A DNA stretch of 64,000 nucleotides, from positions 1 to 64,000 of the forward strand of contig JAKUOW010000004.1 in the NCBI GenBank assembly GCA_022451045.1, read 5' to 3'. The translations under genes were made by a program, and so were the position numbers. Positions 1,850 through 14,336 of the stretch are shown piece by piece. The DNA comes from Pirellulales bacterium. Its GTDB lineage: Bacteria > Planctomycetota > Planctomycetia > Pirellulales > Pirellulaceae. Each line of letters begins with the position of its first letter. Position 1 is the first letter of the stretch. Below the pieces are notes generated by a model. The model was not told where the DNA came from and ran no database searches. It saw only the letters and a list, made by a program, of their open reading frames with translations.

Positions 1850-4800
1850 ATGCCCGTTTCCGATATCGTTGTCAAAGGTGCCAGGGAGCATAACCTGTGT
1901 GATGTAAGCGTCACGCTCCCTCGCAACCAGTTGATATGCATGACCGGTGTTAGCGGCAGCGGTAAAAGTTCCCTCGCGTTTGATACTGTCTTTGCCGAAG
2001 GCCAGCGCCGCTACATTGAAAGCCTCAGCAGCTTTGCCCGTCAATTCCTTGGGCAAATGCCAAAGCCGGACGTCGATTTGATCAGTGGCCTAAGCCCAAC
2101 CATTTCAATTTCACAAAAGACAGCGGGTCGAAACCCTCGCAGTACAGTCGGCACCATCACGGAAATCTACGACTTCCTGCGAGTTTTGTATTCGAGAGTC
2201 GGAACCGGTTACTGTCCTCAATGCGATCGAAAAATCACAGCACAAAGCCTCGAGCAAATTGTCTCCGGTATTTTGATCCTCGAGTCAGGCACACGTTTCA
2301 GCCTCCTGGCACCTCTGATACGTGGTCAAAAAGGTGAACATAAGGATCTGTTCGAAGACCTCCTCCGGCAGGGTTACATTCGGATCCGTGCGGACGGGCA
2401 GATATTCCCACTGAGCGACCCTCCGTCTCTCGATCGACGGCGCCGACACGATATCGAAGTGGTGGTGGATCGGTTGCAGATTAAATCCGACATCCGCTCC
2501 CGACTCACAGAGTCTGTCGAGCAAGCCTTAAAAATTGGTGATGGCACGCTGTTCGTCGCATTGGAAACGGATAAAGATGTCGCCGACAAAATCTATTCAA
2601 GTGAATATGCTTGTACCGAATGTGGAATTAGCTTCCCAACACCCAGCCCACAACTATTTAGCTTTAACAGCCCACGAGGGATGTGTCAGAAGTGCGACGG
2701 TCTGGGCACACTGTATTCATTCGATGAAAACCTGCTAATCCCAGATACTTCACTGAGTTTTATGCAAGGTTGTATCGACACAACCGACACGTGGAAAAAA
2801 ATGGGCCGTTGGCGACGTCACATCTATAAGGGTGTGGCTGAAACGATGGAACGTATTCACGACTTCCCTGAAGGTCTGATGCTTGAAACACCGTGGGCTG
2901 ACCTGCCACAACAAGCGAGAGATATTTGGCTTTGGGGAGCCGGTGATCATCACATCACATTTACCTGGCGAGGTGGAAATGCGCCTCTAAAATATGGCGG
3001 CACCTTTGACGGGATCATACCTGAGCTCAAGTCCAAGTACACGGGCAGCAAAAGCAAGGTGCAATTGCGTCAGCTCGAAAAATATATGCGGACAATCGAG
3101 TGTCCCACATGTGACGGCCAGCGATTAGTAGCTCAGGCTCGGTCTGTAAAACTAGAGTCGTCTCATCCTCAGTTTGAACAGTCGCCGTGGCAAAGTCTGC
3201 CAGATGTATGTGCCCTTAGTGTGAAAGATGCGGCGGACTTTTTTGACCAGATCAAGTTAGGCCCAACCTCAGCAATTATTGCTGAAGAAGCTCTTAAAGA
3301 AATCCGTGGACGACTTGGATTCCTACTAAACGTTGGGCTGGACTATCTGGCACTGGATCGGACGGCACCAACACTTTCTGGTGGCGAAGCACAGCGGATC
3401 CGACTTGCTGCACAAATCGGATCAGGTCTTGTCGGCGTCCTATATATTCTGGATGAACCGTCGATCGGATTGCATCCGAGAGATAACGACCGGCTGCTGC
3501 AAACGCTGAAGCACTTGCGAGATATCGGAAACACCGTCGTCGTTGTTGAGCATGATGAAGACACTATGCGGACGGCAGATTACCTGGTGGACTTCGGCCC
3601 TGGCGCTGGCATCTGTGGAGGAGAAATTGTAGCCCGCGGATCAATCGACGAAATTGAAATGCAGGATCGAAGCGTGACCGGTCAGTTTCTTGCCGGTAAA
3701 CGTGAAATTGAAATCCCGTCAACGCGACGACCGCAAAACGGAGAATCGGTTACGGTACGAGAAGCTGCTCACAATAATCTCAAATCGGTGGATGTCGAGA
3801 TTCCCACAGGCAATCTGGTGGGTATTACAGGAGTATCCGGCAGCGGCAAAAGCTCACTGGTCAACGATATTCTTGTCGAAGCACTTCGACGCGACTTGAA
3901 TAACGGCCTTGGTACGCCCGGAGATCATGCGGGTATCGATGGCATGGAATATCTGGACAAGATGATTGCCATCGATCAATCACCCATCGGACGTACACCA
4001 CGATCGAATCCGGCTACATATATAAAAGTCTTCGATGATATTCGAAACCTGTTTTCACAACTTCCTGACGCAAAACGCCGTGGGTATAAACCGGGACGAT
4101 TTAGTTTCAACGTCAAAGGTGGTCGTTGCGAGGCATGTGAAGGCAACGGTACAAATCGTCTTGAAATGGACTTCTTGGCTGATGTCTGGGTGACCTGCCC
4201 GGTATGTAACAGTAATCGCTTCAATCGTGAAACGTTGCAGGTGCAGTTCAAAGGGCATTCCATCGCCGACGTACTCGAAATGGAAATTGGTGAAGCATTA
4301 GAGTTATTTGAGAACATCCCGAAGATTCACCACAAGTTGTCGACGCTCAAAGATGTGGGGCTAGAGTACATCAAACTCGGGCAGCCATCTCCTCCCCTTT
4401 CAGGCGGCGAAGCACAACGTATCAAGTTAGCGAAAGAGCTGGTGAAGAAGAGTACCGGTCAAACATTGTACTTGCTTGACGAGCCGACAACCGGACTGCA
4501 TTTCGCTGACATCCAGATGCTCCTGAAAGTGCTCCATGCGTTCGTGGACAACGGAAACACGGTCTTAATCGTTGAACATAATCTGGATGTTATTAAGACA
4601 GCGGACTGGGTGATGGATCTCGGCCCCGAAGGTGGTGAAGACGGAGGTGAGATCGTCTGCCAGGGCACGCCTGAACAGGTTGCCGATTGCGAAGCATCCT
4701 TTACAGGACGAGCATTAGCACGTGTCTTACGCGGAGAAGCAAACCCCGCGGCTGAAAGAAAACGTGACCAGGAACTCGCGGCCAAGGCGGATCGGGAGCT

Positions 4801-7800
4801 TAAGCGAATCAAGGTGACTGGTGCCCGCCAACACAACTTGAAAATGGTGGATACGGAAATTGCCCGTGATCACATGACGGTATTTTCCGGTCCTAGTGGG
4901 TCTGGCAAAACATCGCTGGCAATGGACACAATCTATGCCGAAGGTCAGCGCCGTTACGTTGAGAGTTTAAGTAGCTATGCCCGGCAGTTCATAAATCAAA
5001 TGCAAAAGCCACAGCTCGACTATATCGAAGGGCTCTCTCCGGCTATTGCCATTGAACAAAAGAATCTCGGCCATACTCCCCGTTCCACGGTTGGTACTGT
5101 CACAGAGATTTATGATTACCTGCGAATCCTGATGGCTCGGTGTGGAGTGCCACATTGCCCTGACTGTGACATTGAAGTCGGAACACAGGCTGCGGATCAG
5201 ATTATCGATAAGGTACTGGATTGTGAAGAAGGGACTCGGATGTTCCTAATGGCGCCGGTGGAGCTGGATCCGGGTCAGGAGTACGAACAGTTATGGGATG
5301 AGATTCGCACGTCCGGCTTCCAGCGTGTGCGTATCGATCGTACGACGTATCGCGTCGACGAAATACCGGAGCTTGACCGCCGCAGTGTTCATCATGTTAC
5401 CGTCGTCGTGGATCGAATTACCGCGAGGGAAGGCGATCGGTCGAGAATTGCCGAGAGTATTGAGTTGGCACTCCAGCTTGGTAAGGGCGAAATGGAAGTG
5501 GCCCTGGTAAATGAATCCCAAGATGAAACGCAATGGGAAGTCATACCACACAGTCAGCATCTTGCCTGTAATTCCTGCGGACGCAGCTTTGAGCATCTCA
5601 CGCCACATCACTTTTCCTTCAACAGTAATCTTGGCTGGTGCTCATCGTGTGAAGGAATCGGTATTCAAACGGGTGCAAATCTCAGCCTTATGATCCCTGA
5701 TACCCGACTTACGTTGGCTGAAGGCGTGCTCAAACTGTGGCCCGACCTTGAGAATCGAATCAGCCGCGCGATGCTCGAGGCACTTGGCGCAAGACTCGGA
5801 GTGCCGACCGATTTGCCATTCGAGAAGCTTACACCTCGCCAGCGACGAATCATGCTTCATGGCGGACCTCCTCAATGGATCGAGGTGCAGATACCGGCTG
5901 ATGGCAGCGATCCGGCGAGGAAATTCAGTTTTCAATTCAAAGGACTGTATCCCGCTCTCGCTGAAGCATCACGGTTGTCCGCTTCACTGAGAAGCAGATT
6001 AGAACATTTGATTGACGAAGTCGAATGCTCAACGTGTGGAGGCAGTCGAATACGTGATGACGCAGGTGCATATCGATTTAGGAATGAAACGGTTGAAACG
6101 CTTTGCCGCACACCGCTTGGTGATCTGCTTTCACTGGTGAATAAGTGGGAGCTGGACGACCGGGAACAGCTGATTGCTGGCGAGTTACTGCGTGAGATTA
6201 AAGCACGATTGGAATTTCTCAATGAAATTGGACTGTTCTATCTCAGCCTGAATCGGCCATCTGCCACGTTGTCTAACGGGGAAGCACAACGGATTCGACT
6301 TGCCAGCCAACTTGGCAGCGGGCTGTGTGGAGTACTGTATGTGCTCGACGAGCCGACGATTGGTTTGCACCCAAGAGATAACGGCCGCTTGCTGCGAGCA
6401 TTGCACAAACTTCGTGATCTCGGAAATACACTGCTTGTTGTTGAGCATGATCGCGAAGTGATTGAAGGCAGCGATTACCTGTATGACTTTGGTCCAGGTA
6501 GCGGAAGTCATGGTGGACAGATTGTGGCCCATGGCAGTATTGATGAAGTCAGCAAACACAAAGGCAGCGTGACCGGACCGTACCTGAAGGGAAAAAAATC
6601 GATCCCAATACCGGAAAACCGCAGGCGAGTTATTAATAGTGCAAAATCTGGCAGTCAGTGGCTCGAAGTAATTGAAGCGTCACACAATAATCTCAAACAT
6701 GTGAATTTACGTATCCCGCTTGGAACCCTAACGGCAATCACCGGCCCCAGTGGTAGCGGAAAGAGTTCTCTGATCGATGATACGCTGTATCCAGCACTTG
6801 CCCGCCGACTTCATCGTGCATCGCTGATTCCCGGAGCTCATGAGCGCATTGATGGACTCGAATACATTAACAAGGTGATTCGAGTAGACCAAAATCCACT
6901 GGGTAACTCGCCGTCGTCAAACCCGGCAACCTATACAGGAATGTTCGACTTAATTCGCGAACTGTTCTCAAAGTTGCCGGATGCTAAGATTCGCGGATAC
7001 ACGGCTCGACGTTTCAGCTTCAATGTCCCAGGTGGTCGCTGCGATGATTGTGATGGACAAGGACAAAAGTGCATTGAAATGCATTTCCTGCCGGACGTGT
7101 GGGTCCCGTGTGAAACCTGTGAAGGTAAACGCTACAACGATGAGACGCTGACCGTCCAATTCCGTGGTCACTCTATTAGTGATGTTCTTGCAATGACCTG
7201 CAAAGAAGCTCTGGAGTTGTTTGATAGCATTCCAAAAATTCGGAAGATTCTCCAGACGCTTTGTGATGTGGGCCTTGATTACCTGACGTTAGGCCAATCT
7301 GCTCCGACACTTTCAGGTGGTGAGGCACAACGAGTTAAGTTAGCGGCAGAATTGTCTCGCCCGGATACAGGACAGACGCTGTACCTGTTAGACGAACCAA
7401 CCACCGGATTACATTTTGATGACTTGCGCAAGCTACTGGACGTCCTGCAACGACTCGTTGATCTGGGAAATACCGTTGTGGTGATTGAACACAATCTGGA
7501 TCTGATCAAGTCCGCTGACTGGATTATCGATATTGGACCGGAAGCTGGCGAGGCAGGTGGACAAATCGTCGGACAAGGTACTCCCGAAGCTCTATCAAAG
7601 AAATTTGCCGGTAAGACGAAACGAAAAGTACCGAGTCACACTGCACAAGCGTTGGCGCCGGTGCTTGATGAAGGCCCTTATGAAAAACGTGTGTCGTTTG
7701 ATCCTTCAGTAACTGACGCAGAGCAAGAAGGCGACCTATCGATAAGTGATATTGGTGATCAGGCCAGTATGCCGTGGGAAGTTGACGGTCTTAAGTGGCA

Positions 7801-8692
7801 CACAGTCGATCGTGTTGGACGACGCGGCGAGCCGTGCCGGTGGGATGGAAAAATACTGGCCGAGGTTATCCAGCGAATTGAAAAGCATGGCAGCTTTAGC
7901 GAAACCGATTACAGTAGCCGAACCGTTGTTGAAATCGCTGCTCAAAAGAAGAGTCAGGGGTGGTTCTTTCACGCGATTACCGCCGAAGCGTGGTTGCTGA
8001 AAATGAAATTCCGTACAGCAACAGGCACCTTTAGGCGTGAACAGCTCGTGCCAGCCATGGGACTGAAGACTCTTAATCAAATGGATGAGTTACCGGTTTA
8101 TGGCAACGAACCCAGGGTGAAAGTAAAGTCACTGAGAGGCCCATGGCAAGAAGTGGAAATCAGAGCACATAGTTGGGAAGAAATCGATAACCCGGTGTTT
8201 TGGGAGTTTATTGAAACGGCCGCGAAAGGGTTTGCCAAAGTTACAGATTCAACGGCCAGGGATCCGAACAAACACACGCCCTGGAAAAAAGCGGGTCAGC
8301 AGTGGCACTTTTCGAGAAAGGGCTTTACTGGTGGGCGAAATATCCAATGGCCTGCAGAAGTTTGGGAAGACCTATACGGATTGTTACAGAGCCTTGTACC
8401 GGATGGTCAGTTCCTATGGAACAACAAAGTTTTGGTACACCTGTATCAAAAAGGTGGTCGTATGCCATGGGTAACGATCAATACCAAGAAAGCTGAAGAT
8501 CTGGTGTTGATCGTTAATACGCCCACCGGCCAAACGACAACTGGTCGAATTGCAGACCTAGGGCGTAAGCGCGAAGTCGGCAGTGGTAAAGCAGAGCGTG
8601 ATCACGTGAAGATTTACTTTCGCAGTGTGGAAGATATTTATAGCGGTGACCTTGAGAGCTTCCTGCGTGAACAACTGGAATTAGAGCAATAG
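1850..8692 (+). CDS. uvrA: Tandem double UvrA (excinuclease ABC subunit A fusion)
   Basis: This 2280-residue protein is two complete UvrA copies in one chain, against about 940 residues for ordinary UvrA. UvrA is the DNA damage-sensing ATPase of nucleotide excision repair. Copy 1 covers about residues 1-960 and copy 2 about 985-1940. Each copy has two Walker A motifs: GVSGSGKSS at about 33 and 660, GPSGSGKTS at about 1013 and GPSGSGKSS at about 1632. Each also has CxxC zinc modules (CTECG/CQKC, CEAC/CPVC, CNSCG/CSSC, CDDC/CETC) and LDEP Walker B motifs. Three signatures read LSGGEAQR, while the one at about 1474 reads LSNGEAQR. Residues about 1955-2280 are not UvrA. They are Trp-rich and look like an internal duplication. 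The start ATG follows GAAGAGAG. A CBM9-like gene follows 11 bases downstream. A link to repair of planctomycete DNA is inferred from family. Confidence 0.95.
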   Translation: MPVSDIVVKGAREHNLCDVSVTLPRNQLICMTGVSGSGKSSLAFDTVFAEGQRRYIESLSSFARQFLGQMPKPDVDLISGLSPTISISQKTAGRNPRSTVGTITEIYDFLRVLYSRVGTGYCPQCDRKITAQSLEQIVSGILILESGTRFSLLAPLIRGQKGEHKDLFEDLLRQGYIRIRADGQIFPLSDPPSLDRRRRHDIEVVVDRLQIKSDIRSRLTESVEQALKIGDGTLFVALETDKDVADKIYSSEYACTECGISFPTPSPQLFSFNSPRGMCQKCDGLGTLYSFDENLLIPDTSLSFMQGCIDTTDTWKKMGRWRRHIYKGVAETMERIHDFPEGLMLETPWADLPQQARDIWLWGAGDHHITFTWRGGNAPLKYGGTFDGIIPELKSKYTGSKSKVQLRQLEKYMRTIECPTCDGQRLVAQARSVKLESSHPQFEQSPWQSLPDVCALSVKDAADFFDQIKLGPTSAIIAEEALKEIRGRLGFLLNVGLDYLALDRTAPTLSGGEAQRIRLAAQIGSGLVGVLYILDEPSIGLHPRDNDRLLQTLKHLRDIGNTVVVVEHDEDTMRTADYLVDFGPGAGICGGEIVARGSIDEIEMQDRSVTGQFLAGKREIEIPSTRRPQNGESVTVREAAHNNLKSVDVEIPTGNLVGITGVSGSGKSSLVNDILVEALRRDLNNGLGTPGDHAGIDGMEYLDKMIAIDQSPIGRTPRSNPATYIKVFDDIRNLFSQLPDAKRRGYKPGRFSFNVKGGRCEACEGNGTNRLEMDFLADVWVTCPVCNSNRFNRETLQVQFKGHSIADVLEMEIGEALELFENIPKIHHKLSTLKDVGLEYIKLGQPSPPLSGGEAQRIKLAKELVKKSTGQTLYLLDEPTTGLHFADIQMLLKVLHAFVDNGNTVLIVEHNLDVIKTADWVMDLGPEGGEDGGEIVCQGTPEQVADCEASFTGRALARVLRGEANPAAERKRDQELAAKADRELKRIKVTGARQHNLKMVDTEIARDHMTVFSGPSGSGKTSLAMDTIYAEGQRRYVESLSSYARQFINQMQKPQLDYIEGLSPAIAIEQKNLGHTPRSTVGTVTEIYDYLRILMARCGVPHCPDCDIEVGTQAADQIIDKVLDCEEGTRMFLMAPVELDPGQEYEQLWDEIRTSGFQRVRIDRTTYRVDEIPELDRRSVHHVTVVVDRITAREGDRSRIAESIELALQLGKGEMEVALVNESQDETQWEVIPHSQHLACNSCGRSFEHLTPHHFSFNSNLGWCSSCEGIGIQTGANLSLMIPDTRLTLAEGVLKLWPDLENRISRAMLEALGARLGVPTDLPFEKLTPRQRRIMLHGGPPQWIEVQIPADGSDPARKFSFQFKGLYPALAEASRLSASLRSRLEHLIDEVECSTCGGSRIRDDAGAYRFRNETVETLCRTPLGDLLSLVNKWELDDREQLIAGELLREIKARLEFLNEIGLFYLSLNRPSATLSNGEAQRIRLASQLGSGLCGVLYVLDEPTIGLHPRDNGRLLRALHKLRDLGNTLLVVEHDREVIEGSDYLYDFGPGSGSHGGQIVAHGSIDEVSKHKGSVTGPYLKGKKSIPIPENRRRVINSAKSGSQWLEVIEASHNNLKHVNLRIPLGTLTAITGPSGSGKSSLIDDTLYPALARRLHRASLIPGAHERIDGLEYINKVIRVDQNPLGNSPSSNPATYTGMFDLIRELFSKLPDAKIRGYTARRFSFNVPGGRCDDCDGQGQKCIEMHFLPDVWVPCETCEGKRYNDETLTVQFRGHSISDVLAMTCKEALELFDSIPKIRKILQTLCDVGLDYLTLGQSAPTLSGGEAQRVKLAAELSRPDTGQTLYLLDEPTTGLHFDDLRKLLDVLQRLVDLGNTVVVIEHNLDLIKSADWIIDIGPEAGEAGGQIVGQGTPEALSKKFAGKTKRKVPSHTAQALAPVLDEGPYEKRVSFDPSVTDAEQEGDLSISDIGDQASMPWEVDGLKWHTVDRVGRRGEPCRWDGKILAEVIQRIEKHGSFSETDYSSRTVVEIAAQKKSQGWFFHAITAEAWLLKMKFRTATGTFRREQLVPAMGLKTLNQMDELPVYGNEPRVKVKSLRGPWQEVEIRAHSWEEIDNPVFWEFIETAAKGFAKVTDSTARDPNKHTPWKKAGQQWHFSRKGFTGGRNIQWPAEVWEDLYGLLQSLVPDGQFLWNNKVLVHLYQKGGRMPWVTINTKKAEDLVLIVNTPTGQTTTGRIADLGRKREVGSGKAERDHVKIYFRSVEDIYSGDLESFLREQLELEQ

Positions 8693-8703: not shown

Positions 8704-9372
8704 ATGGCAGAAACACAGAGCCCACAATTGATTGACCCCACATTGCTGTTCCAGTTTTCACAGTCGTTAGAGAAGACACGTAGCAAATGGTCAGATGAAA
8801 CAGGAATTAAGCTTACCGAGCGTCATGATTTAGGGACGTTTAATGACTTAACAGGTAAGAAGCAATTCGCTGATCTAAAAATGGGTTGGAATGCGAACGG
8901 AATTTATGTGCATTTACGTGTCCGCGGCAAAACTCAGTCGATTTGGGCTCGAACACAAAAGCCAGAAGATAGTGATGGACTACAGATCTGGATTGATACT
9001 CGCGATACACACATGATTCACAGGGCGACACAGTATTGCCATTGGTTTGTGCTCTTACCAGTTGGTGCTGGCAAAGGCTTCACGCAACCATCGGCGAGGA
9101 TGCTGCCGATCAACCGTGCAAAGCAACATCCGAATCCGATTATCCCGGATTCTATTCGCGTCAAAAGTGCCATCAAGCGGGATGGTTATGAACTTCAGGC
9201 ATTCATCCCTTCTGATGCACTAACGGGGTTTAACCCGGATGAGTACCAGCGATTAGGATTCTTTTATAAAGTTACCGATCGGGAATTAGGGACACAGCAC
9301 TTTAGTCTTGGAAATGACTATCCGGTTACCGAAGATCCAAGTCTGTGGGGGTCGCTGACGCTGGACAAATAG
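8704..9372 (+). CDS. CBM9/DOMON-like domain protein
   Basis: The protein has 222 residues. The middle resembles the carbohydrate-binding family 9-like (DOMON-related) beta-sandwich. The pattern is a W-x-x-N-G-I-Y-V strand (MGWNANGIYVHLRV), then a D-G-L-Q-I-W-I-D-T-R-D strand typical of the fold, and a final strand ending in SLWGSLTLDK. There is no signal peptide, which is unusual for a sugar-binding module and suggests a cytoplasmic role. The start follows AGGAGAGCAAATC. It lies 11 bases after the double uvrA and is probably co-transcribed with it. Its ligand and any repair role are unknown. Confidence 0.7.
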   Translation: MAETQSPQLIDPTLLFQFSQSLEKTRSKWSDETGIKLTERHDLGTFNDLTGKKQFADLKMGWNANGIYVHLRVRGKTQSIWARTQKPEDSDGLQIWIDTRDTHMIHRATQYCHWFVLLPVGAGKGFTQPSARMLPINRAKQHPNPIIPDSIRVKSAIKRDGYELQAFIPSDALTGFNPDEYQRLGFFYKVTDRELGTQHFSLGNDYPVTEDPSLWGSLTLDK

Positions 9373-9396
9373 AGGTAATCCGAAGTCTTAAATCGA

Positions 9397-10320
9397 TTAC
9401 TCTGCCATATCACGCGCGTGATAACTGCTGCGAACAAACGGACCGCTTGCTACTTTTTCAAATCCCATTTCTTTCGCTATTTCACCAAGCTCATCAAATT
9501 CGTCGGGTGGAATGAACCGTTGCACGCCAAGGTAACCCGGTCCAGGCTGCAGATACTGACCAAGAGTGAGGAAGTCACACTGATATTCTCGAAGGTCCGC
9601 TAGTACATCGAGGATTTCATCTCGGGTTTCACCAAGTCCAAGCATCAATCCGCTCTTCGTCTTGATATTTGAATCCTGTTGTTTGATATGCCCTAGCATA
9701 CCGAGCGTCCACTTGTATCGACTCTTGGGGCCACGTACACGACGGTACAATCTTGGGACCGTTTCTGTGTTGTGATTGAACACTTCCGGCGCCGCTTCGA
9801 TGACACGGTCCAATGCCGGCAAATTGTCTATGAAGTCTGGTGTCAGAACTTCGATGGTCGCATCACATCGATCGCGAACAGCCAGAATACACTGGCGGTA
9901 ATGCTCAGCACCGCCATCTGGTAAGTCATCACGCGTGACAGAAGTGATCACGACATGCTTTAGCCCCAGTCGAACGGCCGCCTCGGCTAAACGTTCCGGT
10001 TCGTCCGCTTCTAATTCATCTGGTACACCGCGACCCACAGCACAAAAACCACAAGGTCTCGTGCAGACATTCCCAAGAATCATAAATGTTGCGGTGAGCT
10101 GCGAGTAACATTCCATTCGATTTGGACATTTTGCGTTATCGCAAACAGTCTCCAATCCGAGTTCATCCAGCAATCCTTCAGTGAAGTGATTAGCATTTCC
10201 CTTGGGCACTTCGCGCTTTAGCCATTTGGGCAGCCGCTCTCTCTCAGTAGTACGAGAAGGCAGCTGTTCAGGCATTGCTTGAACAATGGGTAATTCGAAT
10301 TGTGAAGAGGATTCGGTCAT
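9397..10320 (-). CDS. lipA: Lipoyl synthase
   Basis: LipA is a radical SAM enzyme that inserts two sulfurs into protein-bound octanoate to make lipoyl groups. The 307-residue length is normal. The auxiliary cluster motif is C-x4-C-x5-C (CDNAKCPNRMEC) and the radical SAM motif is C-x3-C-x2-C (CTRPCGFC). The C-terminal RSSYHA supplies the conserved Arg-Ser-Ser-Tyr that holds the auxiliary cluster. Both Fe-S sites are therefore complete. It starts 3 bases after the lipB-like stop, so the pair is translationally coupled. It acts in the cytoplasm on pyruvate or 2-oxoglutarate dehydrogenase E2 and on GcvH. Confidence 0.97.
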   Translation of the reverse strand: MTESSSQFELPIVQAMPEQLPSRTTERERLPKWLKREVPKGNANHFTEGLLDELGLETVCDNAKCPNRMECYSQLTATFMILGNVCTRPCGFCAVGRGVPDELEADEPERLAEAAVRLGLKHVVITSVTRDDLPDGGAEHYRQCILAVRDRCDATIEVLTPDFIDNLPALDRVIEAAPEVFNHNTETVPRLYRRVRGPKSRYKWTLGMLGHIKQQDSNIKTKSGLMLGLGETRDEILDVLADLREYQCDFLTLGQYLQPGPGYLGVQRFIPPDEFDELGEIAKEMGFEKVASGPFVRSSYHARDMAE

Positions 10321-10323
10321 AGC

Positions 10324-11061
10324 TTAATGCTCTGTTGAGACCATCCTTCTCAGTTCGGGGTGTCCGGTTGTTATGTGATAATCTTCACAACCAAAGGCAT
10401 GACCAACACTTTCAATTAGCGCAGATCTTACTTGCGACATTCTAACAGCACGACGTCTTTCGGCCAGCAGACATGACAATGTCTGCCGGGCTTGACCCTC
10501 TGGTAATTTTGTCACGCTATCGATATATCCAAAGTGCTTCATCTGCGGATTCACATTGATATATGCTCCATGAGTGCTCATATCTTCGTGTTTGCCCACT
10601 CCAACCGTAGCAATAGCTCCGGTTCGTCCCCAAACAGCTCTATTAGATTTGTACGTGGTCGTTTGATAGTCGATTTCTTCAAGGCCGGAACGTACTGCAT
10701 CACGTAGCATTCGCGTAATGGCTTTGGTTGATACGGAGAATGTGCTGAGTGGCACAAGCGGGTAAACACAAAGTTGTCCTTCACCATGTAGGAAGCAGCC
10801 CCCACCACGGTTTACCCACTTCGTTGTTAAGTTCTGCTTTTGGAGTTGTTCTGCTTTAAGACGAATGTGCGATCGTGATCCGGAGTAGCCAACAGTTACA
10901 ACGGGATCATGTTCACAAAGAAGCACGGTTATTTGACGAGGATTAATGGCAGTCGAAAACGTCGAGAGATTAACAATCTGTTTTTGAAGTTGGTTAACCA
11001 GATCGTATTTGATTGTTCCAAGCAGGTGAAACATTACACGGCTATCTTTGAAATTCCGCAT
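10324..11061 (-). CDS. LipB-like octanoyltransferase family protein, catalytic residues apparently missing
   Basis: This is a homologue of LipB, which moves octanoate from acyl carrier protein to lipoyl domains. The family block RGGxxxxHGxGQ is visible as RGGGCFLHGEGQ, followed by a YPLVPL strand and a THGAYINVN strand. In known LipB enzymes a Lys precedes IAxxG (KIAxLG) and a Cys sits in NPCGY. Here the matching stretches read GAIATVG and GYIDSV, so both Lys and Cys appear absent. The start is set at ATG 11061, since the track start is a TTG nine bases upstream, and MFHLLGT a little further in is also possible. Its place directly before lipA supports a role in lipoylation. The chemistry is uncertain, and it may be inactive, divergent or non-catalytic. 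Confidence 0.75.
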   Translation of the reverse strand: MRNFKDSRVMFHLLGTIKYDLVNQLQKQIVNLSTFSTAINPRQITVLLCEHDPVVTVGYSGSRSHIRLKAEQLQKQNLTTKWVNRGGGCFLHGEGQLCVYPLVPLSTFSVSTKAITRMLRDAVRSGLEEIDYQTTTYKSNRAVWGRTGAIATVGVGKHEDMSTHGAYINVNPQMKHFGYIDSVTKLPEGQARQTLSCLLAERRRAVRMSQVRSALIESVGHAFGCEDYHITTGHPELRRMVSTEH

Positions 11062-11081
11062 AGGTCTCAATCGCTTTCAGA

Positions 11082-11582
11082 CTATCTTCTACGCATCGCC
11101 CGCTGAAGGCCACGTTGTGTGTCGGCTTTCTTCAGCGCTTCACGTTTATCATGAGTTTTCTTACCACGGCAGAGGCCAACGAGGCATTTGGCGATTCCAC
11201 GGTGGTTGAAATACATTTTTAGAGGGACGAGAGTCAGGCCATTTTCATGAGCCTTTCCAGCGAATTTACGGATTTCACTTTGATGCATCAGTAGCTTGCG
11301 TGGTCGCTTCGGAGCATGGTTCATTTGGCTTGCTTGCTTGTATTCAGGAATATCGCAACCGACCAGCCAAACTTCGCGGTTTTGGACTCGGGCATAAGCT
11401 TCGTCCAGCGAAACACGATTGAGGCGCAAGCTTTTCACTTCGCTGCCGATAAGTGCCAGACCGCACTCGAGCGTATCGAGTACCTGATACTTGTGCCGCG
11501 CTTTACGGTTCTCGGCAATGGGCTTGTAGTTCGGATTCTCCGACTGCCCGGCTGCCTTTTTCTTTTTGTTCTTCTTGCCCAT
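11082..11582 (-). CDS. smpB: SsrA-binding protein SmpB
   Basis: SmpB binds tmRNA and brings it to stalled ribosomes for trans-translation. The core shows ENRKARHKY, then LECGLALIGSEVKSLR (the SmpB signature), a NHAPKRPRKLL segment and a basic C-terminal tail (GKKTHDKREALKKAD) that occupies the mRNA channel. The start is placed at ATG 11582 (MGKKNKKKKA) because the track ORF begins at an upstream TTG. The N-terminus is Lys-rich. The 166-residue length fits the family. The gene lies 20 bases before lipB-like on the same strand and after the ABC permease. Confidence 0.97.
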   Translation of the reverse strand: MGKKNKKKKAAGQSENPNYKPIAENRKARHKYQVLDTLECGLALIGSEVKSLRLNRVSLDEAYARVQNREVWLVGCDIPEYKQASQMNHAPKRPRKLLMHQSEIRKFAGKAHENGLTLVPLKMYFNHRGIAKCLVGLCRGKKTHDKREALKKADTQRGLQRAMRRR

Positions 11583-11708
11583 GAGTAAATCGTAAAACAA
11601 ATGGCTTTTCGTTGTTAGATGTCAGGTTCGACATCAAGGAACACTCCAACGTAGCTTTGAAAGCTCAGGATTCGTACCGTGCAATGAGTTGCGCCACTTT
11701 CTCAGTGT

Positions 11709-13220
11709 CTAGAGACTTTGCGAGACGTCTGTACGGTAAGCGGAGATTGCAGGCAGAATACCTGCAACGACGCTCAGTAGGATCATGCCTGGGATGATCA
11801 TCAATTCCGGGCTGACGCTACCCATTATCGTTTCAGGATTCATGCCCAGTGGTGGAGCAAATTCAAAGAACCCGATGGAGATGCCAGTTCGACCTTCAAT
11901 TGCATCACTACCAAGTGTTATGAGACCGTGTCCGCAAATGAATCCCAGGATGCCACCAAACGCCGAGAGGATGAATGACTCGATCATAATGATGAACATT
12001 ACCGTATTTCGACGTGCACCCAGTGATCTCAAAATAGCAATTTCCTTGCGTCGCTCACTCATTGTGTTGTAGATGCTGACCAAGATGCTCACCGCTGAAA
12101 CAAGACATACAAGGATAGTAATTACCAGCAATAAATCACGAGCCGGATCGACGAAGCTATCGAACAATATCGAAATTTCCTTGATTGGGAATACAGCCTG
12201 GGCAGTATTCGCTTCGTTTATCGTGTTCTCAAGGCTTGGGGCAAAAATTGGGTTATCTGTTAACAACAGCATCGAGGTGATTTCACGATTTTCCAGCGTC
12301 AACCCACTCGGTGCTGTCTTGTCGACTTCGACACCTTGAAAATCTTCTTCCTGATCGACCGGCTTGGCATGGTCCTCCATCAGGTAGAAGCCTTCCATGT
12401 TGATGAATACGCCGCGGTCGTTTGGAGTACCCGTGGAGTCGAGGATGCCGACAACGGTAAAGGCTGTCGCGTGGACTTCACCGCTCTGTGCACCGTGGGA
12501 TGGTTGAATCTCAGATCCGAGCGTCAGGTTCATTTCCCGAGCAACGGTTGCACCAACGACGGCTTCATAAAATCCATGTTCATCGCTATGGGTTACAAAG
12601 TTGCGTCCCTCGGTAAAGGTATACTGTCGGTCGGCTTGAGGGCCGTATTTGAGTTCGTTAAATAATGCTGGAGTGGTTCCGATCACTCGGAAGGTCCCGA
12701 AATAATCTCCTAGGCAAAGTGGAATTACCAATCCGGTGAATGCGGAGAACTTACCTTGCCGTTTCCATGGCAGTACTTGTTCTAGTTGTTGGTCGAGATG
12801 GTCGTTTAGTATTTCCTGAGTAATGGACGATGCTAGGCCACCGGTTGCGGCGGTCGTTGAAATGACGACGTTGCGTAACTCGTCTTGTTGAGAAACTGCC
12901 TGATATTTATACGAGTTTTCATATGCGGCTTGTCGTTGTTCCAGAGGTAGAAACTCGAGGTAATATTCATACGGAATATTCTCAATCGGCTCGCTCAGGT
13001 AGAACACCGAGTTCATCGTTAGTTGAAGAGCACCACCTTTGGCGCCGACGACCATGTTGTAACCAAGCGATGTGCTCGTCTCGAATGACGTCTTCACGAC
13101 ACCGGAAATGGTCAAGACAGCTACTACAAGGGTTACGCCAAGCGCCATCGAGATGCTTGTAAGCATCGAAGCCAATCGTCGTTGCTTTACACTGCGGTAT
13201 GCAATGTTCCAGAGGTTCAT
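11709..13220 (-). CDS. ABC transporter permease, FtsX/MacB-like
   Basis: The 503-residue inner-membrane protein has the FtsX/MacB layout. One N-terminal membrane segment lies at about 18-40 (TSISMALGVTLVVAVL). A large extracytoplasmic domain of about 300 residues follows. Three C-terminal segments follow around LLLVITILVCLVSAVSILV, SFILSAFGGILGFICG and LMIIPGMILLSVVAGILPA. The motif MSERRKEIAILRSLGA between segments is characteristic of the family. Its start overlaps the stop of the ATPase gene by four bases, so the two form a transporter. The family includes lipoprotein-releasing and drug-exporting systems. The substrate here cannot be told from sequence. Confidence 0.92.
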   Translation of the reverse strand: MNLWNIAYRSVKQRRLASMLTSISMALGVTLVVAVLTISGVVKTSFETSTSLGYNMVVGAKGGALQLTMNSVFYLSEPIENIPYEYYLEFLPLEQRQAAYENSYKYQAVSQQDELRNVVISTTAATGGLASSITQEILNDHLDQQLEQVLPWKRQGKFSAFTGLVIPLCLGDYFGTFRVIGTTPALFNELKYGPQADRQYTFTEGRNFVTHSDEHGFYEAVVGATVAREMNLTLGSEIQPSHGAQSGEVHATAFTVVGILDSTGTPNDRGVFINMEGFYLMEDHAKPVDQEEDFQGVEVDKTAPSGLTLENREITSMLLLTDNPIFAPSLENTINEANTAQAVFPIKEISILFDSFVDPARDLLLVITILVCLVSAVSILVSIYNTMSERRKEIAILRSLGARRNTVMFIIMIESFILSAFGGILGFICGHGLITLGSDAIEGRTGISIGFFEFAPPLGMNPETIMGSVSPELMIIPGMILLSVVAGILPAISAYRTDVSQSL

Positions 13221-13918
13221 GCGTGCGATCCTCCGGTAGCTGCAGTGACGGCTGGCGCCAACTCATTGATATCATCCAATTTGTCGAGCCGGTCGAATTG
13301 GTCAGCAACTTCCATTGAATGGGTGACCATGATTAGCGCCACGTCATTCTCATTGCACGTTTCACGAATCAGATCGATGATACTTTGTTGATTTGCCGGG
13401 TCAATGTTTGCTGTAGGTTCATCAGCAAGAAGTAGTTTTGGTTTATTTGCCAGTGCGCGGGCTACAGCAACGCGTTGTTGTTCGCCGACACTTAGTGCAT
13501 CCGGCTTATGCGTTAATCGGTGACTTAGGCCTACCCGTTCGAGCAGCCAATTGGCGTATTCCTTGTCCGCCTTCCCTTTGGAAAACGTCATACCCAATAA
13601 GACGTTTTCTAATGCTGTGAATGGACTAAGCAGGTTAAAGGTTTGATAAACGTATCCGATATTATCTGCTCGGAATCTGTCCCGTGCCTCTTCAGGTAGA
13701 TTTTGGATTGGATTTGAATCAAACAGGATTTGTCCACTATCAACAGTTGTGATTCCAGCAACGGAGTGAAGGAAAGTAGTTTTTCCGCCTCCGCTTCTTC
13801 CAATCAATACAACCTGTTCCCCCTTATCGACCTCGTAAGAAGGGATGTCCAGAATAGGCAACACTTCGCCATCCGGCTGGAGATATGCCTTCTTTAAATC
13901 ATCAATCTGTAGGAGCAT
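13217..13918 (-). CDS. ABC transporter ATP-binding protein, LolD/MacB-like
   Basis: This is an ATPase subunit of an FtsX-type exporter. It shows Walker A GRSGGGKTT, Q-loop QTFNLLSPFTALENVL, signature LSVGEQQRVAVARAL, Walker B LLLADEPTANID and switch His in MVTHS. The signature is LSVGE rather than LSGGE. The track ORF starts at GTG 13981. I chose ATG 13918 (MLLQIDDLKKAY) because homology to the ABC fold begins there, but neither start has a strong ribosome binding site. Its end overlaps the permease start (ATGA). It seems to be the first gene of a minus-strand run that continues through permease, smpB, lipB-like and lipA. Confidence 0.93.
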   Translation of the reverse strand: MLLQIDDLKKAYLQPDGEVLPILDIPSYEVDKGEQVVLIGRSGGGKTTFLHSVAGITTVDSGQILFDSNPIQNLPEEARDRFRADNIGYVYQTFNLLSPFTALENVLLGMTFSKGKADKEYANWLLERVGLSHRLTHKPDALSVGEQQRVAVARALANKPKLLLADEPTANIDPANQQSIIDLIRETCNENDVALIMVTHSMEVADQFDRLDKLDDINELAPAVTAATGGSHA

Positions 13919-14336
13919 TTCGGAGAGCTTTGCAGGTGCGGAAGACTTCTGATACGGTCTGCTGTCACCCCATAATAGCACGTAGCGGGGATGAGCTTGT
14001 AGTCCTTGAATCAGGTTAGTTTGCGTAAATAAAAATAAATATGTTCGAAAAAACTATATATGTGATTTACGGGCTAAGTGATGCAGTAGTTGGGTTTTAC
14101 ATGCTTTTTCTTCCATAAAAGCCAGTTTATTGCAGTTAGAAAAGTGTATTGAATATGATAAATCGAGTGGATAATGTTAGGTTAAATATTGCCTTACCGA
14201 TGCATTCTTAACTAAAAATAAAGTATGTTACGTAAGTTATGTGTCCGTACTGGCGGTGATTAAACTGCCAGCGGCTCTAATCTTTTCATAATTATACAGA
14301 CGCGTTATTCGAATTTGCGTGTTGAGGGTTTCCAAG
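13919..14336. promoter_or_regulatory. AT-rich divergent intergenic region
   Basis: About 420 bases separate the minus-strand ABC operon from the plus-strand secreted protein, so both promoters should lie here. It is distinctly AT-rich. A 7-base inverted repeat, CGTAAAT at 14024-14030 and ATTTACG at 14065-14071, could be a protein-binding site or weak hairpin. CATAATTATACAG near 14287-14299 could hold a -10 element, but I find no convincing -35. I see no ORF or RNA gene here. Confidence 0.4.

Follow-up and report, generated by a model that had tools for sequence, protein, structure and literature searches.

LipB-like proteins without the catalytic Lys/Cys dyad, encoded beside lipA in Planctomycetia

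The octanoyltransferase LipB reportedly acts through a Cys/Lys dyad, the work being ascribed to Ma et al. in 2006. Besides the dyad, positions V41, T48, R71, T76, H78 and H150 are part of the lipoyl pocket of E. coli LipB (PMC9307952). LipB and LipM, the Firmicutes-type enzyme, are built on one scaffold but differ in the loop that bears the Cys (PMC7253636). The joint presence of both in one genome was called very rare, and the same source asked for an amidotransferase yet to be identified in genomes that have LipM but not LipL (PMC10332631). Catalytically dead relatives that were retained as partners of active enzymes are referred to as pseudoenzymes (PMC10211241). Neither a dyad-less LipB family nor a planctomycete LipB was found described in open-licence full texts.

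The window, i.e. the whole stretch of 64,000 nucleotides considered here, originates from a marine planctomycete. Its near relative was a Rhodopirellula MAG, and it was therefore assigned to class Planctomycetia. On the minus strand it displayed the gene order smpB, LipB-like, lipA, the intergenic gaps measuring about 20 bases and, from the LipB-like stop codon to lipA, 3 bases:

10324..11061, minus strand: LipB-like protein (pseudo-LipB) without the Lys/Cys dyad, 245 aa, ATG start
9397..10320, minus strand: lipA, lipoyl synthase, intact (RSSY motif present; TIGR00510, 351.6 bits, cut-off 310.25)
11082..11600, minus strand: smpB, directly upstream of the LipB-like gene (PF01668, E 4.4e-56)

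The statement of the earlier note that the gene directly precedes an intact lipA was thus borne out, since the TIGR00510 cut-off was passed. An alternative start is offered by an in-frame TTG at 11070 (10324-11070, 248 aa). No sigma-70-like promoter was encountered between the genes in 9300-11800, which is weak evidence for an operon.

The LipB-like protein matched PF21948 (LplA-B_cat, E 4.7e-20) and scored 61 bits with NCBIfam lipB (TIGR00214), below the curated cut-off of 83.55. Solved structures found by sequence were LipBs only, namely those of T. thermophilus (2QHS/2QHT, 3e-13) and M. tuberculosis (1W66, 6e-6). The structural comparison proposed in the earlier note was run on an AlphaFold model (30 homologues in the input; pLDDT 92.9, pTM 0.91), whose best solved matches were again LipBs (2QHS, TM 0.89 by target; 1W66, TM 0.82). 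According to this model, the protein has the LplA/LipB catalytic-domain fold and is nearest LipB. It shares with LipB the fold, length, RGG...H.PGQ loop, lipA adjacency and common descent. With LipM it shares the scaffold, but it lacks the LCF.RR and GSAQRR motifs and groups with LipB. Scaffold and pathway are also common to the lipoyl-relay amidotransferases LipL and LIPT1; the protein nevertheless matches LipB models rather than those of LplA or LipL.

The phmmer alignment with T. thermophilus LipB (2QHT) contained no gap between the Lys and Cys sites (window segment VWGRTGAIATVGVGKHEDMSTHGAYINVN). The conserved His lies 15 positions after the Lys site and 19 before the Cys site, as in E. 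coli LipB. The active-site features are the following:

10615..10617, minus strand: A149 codon, replacing the catalytic Lys (E. coli K135; T. thermophilus GED-K-LCAIG), by ungapped alignment
10513..10515, minus strand: V183 codon, replacing the catalytic Cys (E. coli C169), with SVT instead of PCG, by ungapped alignment
10774..10809, minus strand: RGGGCFLHGEGQ, gating/lipoate-binding loop, residues 85-96, retained with R, GG, H and GQ
10915..10917, minus strand: C49 codon, corresponding to E. coli V41 in the pocket wall, by alignment and with the pocket position taken from PMC9307952
10357..10362, minus strand: H234-P235 codons, C-terminal GHP motif common to the family and not found in intact LipB

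Codon positions of A149 and V183 were counted from the ATG at 11061. Within the RGGGCFLHGEGQ loop, Phe occupied the site of E. coli T76. Residue numbers follow the E. coli LipB sequence; conclusions remained unchanged with only the T. thermophilus sequence and 42 intact planctomycete LipBs as references. The segments GAIATVG and GYIDSV, singled out previously as devoid of Lys and Cys, were the correct sites in this ungapped register. The suspicion that a divergent enzyme had been misaligned was refuted: spacing was identical, three alignments (phmmer, MAFFT and HMM) were used, the dyad was lost throughout the family and all 44 intact references kept it. A sequencing error or a pseudogene was ruled out by a relative's protein of 96 % identity and by about 70 diverse homologues with open frames. 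The Cys of RGGGC was rejected as a new nucleophile, as it is common in Pirellulales but replaced by A, S or T in others.

In a profile search, 250 of 294 Planctomycetota genomes contained LipB-like or LipB proteins. Conservation of the changed sites among planctomycete homologues, another check suggested beforehand, was also examined. The dyad-less family, found in class Planctomycetia, was represented by 74 rows or 73 distinct genes (L005 and L007 being the same contig); the 44 reference LipBs consisted of 42 planctomycete sequences, one of them from Pirellulales (L169), and those of E. coli and T. thermophilus. None of the 74 rows displayed both dyad residues, against all 44 references. Lys was encountered at the K135 site in a single row and Cys at the C169 site in two, neither of which had the Lys; Thr was never found at the T76 site and His occurred at the H150 site in 36 rows, while all these residues were invariant in the 44 intact LipBs. 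No Lys was conserved anywhere in the 74-row alignment, and the single catalytic Lys that serves LplA in both adenylation and transfer has no counterpart. Positions R71, GG, H78, GQ and N155 (E. coli numbering) were kept, the RGG...H.PGQ loop displaying R in 97 %, G87 in 100 %, H in 99 % and GQ in 100 % of rows. The family also displayed residues of its own: Gly at K134 (G148 in the window, 95 %), Arg at G132 (84 %), Ser62 (95 %) and a C-terminal His-Pro (H 93 %, P 99 %), the His of which was present in 0 % of intact LipBs. Loss of LipB chemistry in this family is well supported, and the loss of the dyad, which the earlier note had considered for a single gene, is, by these alignments, a character shared by the whole class.

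Retention of the RGG...H.PGQ loop would also suit a ligand sensor or regulator, whose pocket would bind octanoyl-ACP, octanoate or lipoate and signal supply to LipA or LipM. Structure comparison placed biotin ligases in the same fold, and one of them, BirA, acts as a repressor as well as an enzyme. No DNA-binding domain is visible in the LipB-like protein, however, and the carbonyl-binding residues of the pocket are gone; a sensor is considered highly improbable.

A maximum-likelihood tree was built from 93 rows after four trait columns had been taken out. All dyad-less proteins fell on one side of a single branch, which corresponds to one change (support 100/99), and the order inside the family tracked taxonomy codes (f23 and f22, then f21, then Pirellulales). 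This topology reflects one ancestral loss of the dyad from an ordinary LipB, in the ancestor of Planctomycetia, followed by mostly vertical descent. The Pirellulales LipB with both Lys and Cys (L169; G056:C5:1494-6024) was located apart from lipA on a 7-kb contig and displayed a very long tree branch; it probably reflects either transfer or contamination.

Linkage to lipA was almost general. The LipB-like gene preceded lipA on the same strand in all same-contig relatives, generally ~50-220 bases apart and in one case 1.85 kb. Of 71 testable family members, 69 had lipA as the next gene downstream in the same orientation; two further members that run off a contig end were left out. The exceptions were L019, with lipA 1.85 kb further on, and L032, with none adjoining. 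Intact planctomycete LipB genes adjoined lipA in at least 16 out of 42 cases, a lower bound as divergent lipA may be missed. In genomes without the LipB-like gene, smpB was a position-conserved neighbor of lipA (loci read by eye). An SmpB-like gene was often located beside lipA on the opposite strand in such loci (L037, L041, L045, L047, L049, L051, L053 and L056); smpB and lipA of the window share a strand, and an inversion may have accompanied loss of the LipB-like gene. Elsewhere in the window, an ABC ATPase gene (13217-13981, minus strand) aligned with gaps and displayed a dN/dS above 1 against a close relative, possibly because one assembly or the other has a local frameshift. A single 2280-aa ORF (1850-8692, plus strand) read like two tandem UvrA proteins followed by a further C-terminal stretch, an unusually long UvrA-like fusion.

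Other LipB, LipM or LplA genes, the search for which had equally been proposed, were looked for in the genome of the window (G000, 91 % complete). It harbored two further members of the scaffold family and no second LipB, which leaves no compensating LipB elsewhere in this assembly. One member (L002, contig C338) was of LipM type, possessed the invariant Cys and Lys of the LipM-type motif LCF.RR....K..GSAQRR and adjoined gcvPB. The other (L001, C85) was an LplA-like protein of 242 aa that kept its Lys but lacked the C-terminal accessory domain. Four lipoyl/biotinyl-type domains represent possible targets. A LipM-type octanoyltransferase was present in all 52 sampled Planctomycetia genomes, 46 of which also had the LipB-like gene, and Cys and Lys were intact in 51 out of 51 LipM sequences checked. 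In-frame stops in G238 and G258 did not indicate a broken LipM, as the frames were intact through the active site and the stops lay at the match end. From these residues, the Pirellulales LipM-type protein is presumed to be a working LipM, and LipM is the likely octanoyltransferase of Planctomycetia. In relatives without the LipB-like gene, the usual pair of hits was explained by LipM and the LplA-like protein in the part of the sequences that was read. The accessory domain was also missing from the LplA-like proteins of other Pirellulales (L066-L094), that of the window's genome measuring ~240 aa; this group is a candidate for the missing LipL-type amidotransferase. Several planctomycetes outside Planctomycetia hold both an intact LipB and a LipM, e.g. 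L147, L150 and L166.

The earlier note had envisaged a non-catalytic carrier or chaperone, and this reading proved the best supported one, given LipM in every sampled genome, near-universal lipA linkage and the missing conserved Lys. The LipB-like protein is regarded, with moderate confidence, as a catalytically dead LipB that was kept as a non-catalytic partner of LipA or the carrier after LipM took over octanoyl transfer. LipM would have assumed the transfer from ACP to the carrier protein, and LipB, freed from chemistry, would have been kept for a second property, binding. Its binding partner would most likely be LipA, the octanoylated carrier (GcvH or an E2 lipoyl domain) or both, and the protein would hold or dock the substrate during sulfur insertion by LipA. 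Its help would be dispensable, because many Pirellulales have lost the gene. This helper role is suggested by linkage to lipA and by analogy with E. coli, where LipB is said to form a tight non-covalent complex with LipA, a finding attributed to Hassan and Cronan in JBC (2011). The E. coli mutant K135A/C169A still binds octanoyl-ACP with a KD of 36 uM (PMC9307952). This double mutant is the laboratory counterpart of the window protein. Binding by the mutant, together with the reported complex, put most weight on a non-catalytic LipA/carrier partner. Like pseudoenzymes in general, the family lost its catalytic motif while fold and pathway linkage were retained. Against a partner role, the lipB-lipA order may simply be inherited from an old operon, and no co-evolution with LipA was seen: comparison of LipA from genomes with and without the gene uncovered no convincing signature tracking its presence, only one weak column, which is why confidence is only moderate.

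Relocation of the nucleophile and slow decay are the main rivals of this partner role. The former would retain an enzyme, in which C49 forms the acyl-thioester while H92, R85 or the carrier lysine itself acts as the base. Its reaction could be octanoyl transfer or, as in the LipL/LIPT1 amidotransferases, a lipoyl relay from GcvH to E2. Cys occupied the E. coli V41 site, in the pocket, in 65 of 74 family rows (88 %) compared with four of the 44 intact LipBs. The scaffold moved its Cys before, as the LipB and LipM loops attest, and the amidotransferase sought for LipM genomes without LipL would offer such an enzyme a function. The remaining nine rows, however, displayed A, Y, V, G or T at C49, and the family has no conserved Lys, has lost T76 and K135 and displays a variable H150. 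L001, in the same genome, is moreover the better relay candidate, because its Lys is kept and because it accounts, together with LipM, for the hits in relatives without the gene. The new and conserved pocket-wall Cys leaves some probability to the different transferase chemistry suggested earlier. The non-catalytic reading is better supported, and a relocated nucleophile is judged quite unlikely.

Slow decay would imply that LipM made LipB redundant, that the catalytic residues drifted and that the gene persists only owing to its place upstream of lipA in an operon, its frame carrying translation on into lipA. Losses of the gene speak for such a relic. A detectable homologue was present in only 35 of 79 relatives, many Pirellulales genomes being without it; the lipA tree required seven presence/absence changes by parsimony, at least four of them forced by well-supported branches, and the gene has been lost repeatedly. 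These losses were clean, as a profile search of upstream ORFs at 15 lipA loci lacking the gene found no diverged remnant (E above 0.3). Compared with the 96 %-identical relative, the LipB-like gene had a dN/dS of 0.24, as opposed to 0.035 in lipA and 0.044 in smpB; these values are rough, being based on few changes. Where retained, the gene thus seems to be under purifying but relaxed selection; selection weaker than on lipA is expected for a helper and equally for slow decay. Frames were nonetheless intact in all of the first 30 homologues, and the gene was kept since the root of the whole class. Decay builds no conserved positions, whereas H234-P235, S62, G148 and C49 are new and conserved. 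A decaying relic is considered unlikely.

The window protein thus differs from LipB by the absence of the dyad and of T76 in a family where H150 is variable, by a new pocket Cys and a C-terminal HP motif, and by a score under the lipB cut-off. The class may, with doubt slightly prevailing, possess a third, non-catalytic component of the lipoate pathway, derived from LipB, for docking the octanoylated carrier on the radical-SAM lipoyl synthase or presenting it there, or else a LipB whose nucleophile has moved to C49, a third Cys position on the scaffold. Under annotation by similarity, these genes would be labelled lipB and Planctomycetia would be assigned the pathway of E. coli, while sequence evidence favours LipM as the octanoyltransferase. 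This pseudo-LipB was clade-wide in Planctomycetia; the scan covered Planctomycetota, and the trait may exist in other phyla. Such a change could plausibly have started from the co-occurrence of LipM and intact LipB seen in several other planctomycetes. The family represents a natural separation-of-function mutant, with about 70 diverse dyad-less LipBs, most of them still tied to lipA, and allows a test of a non-enzymatic role of LipB with LipA, e.g. in docking the substrate, a role difficult to isolate in E. coli.
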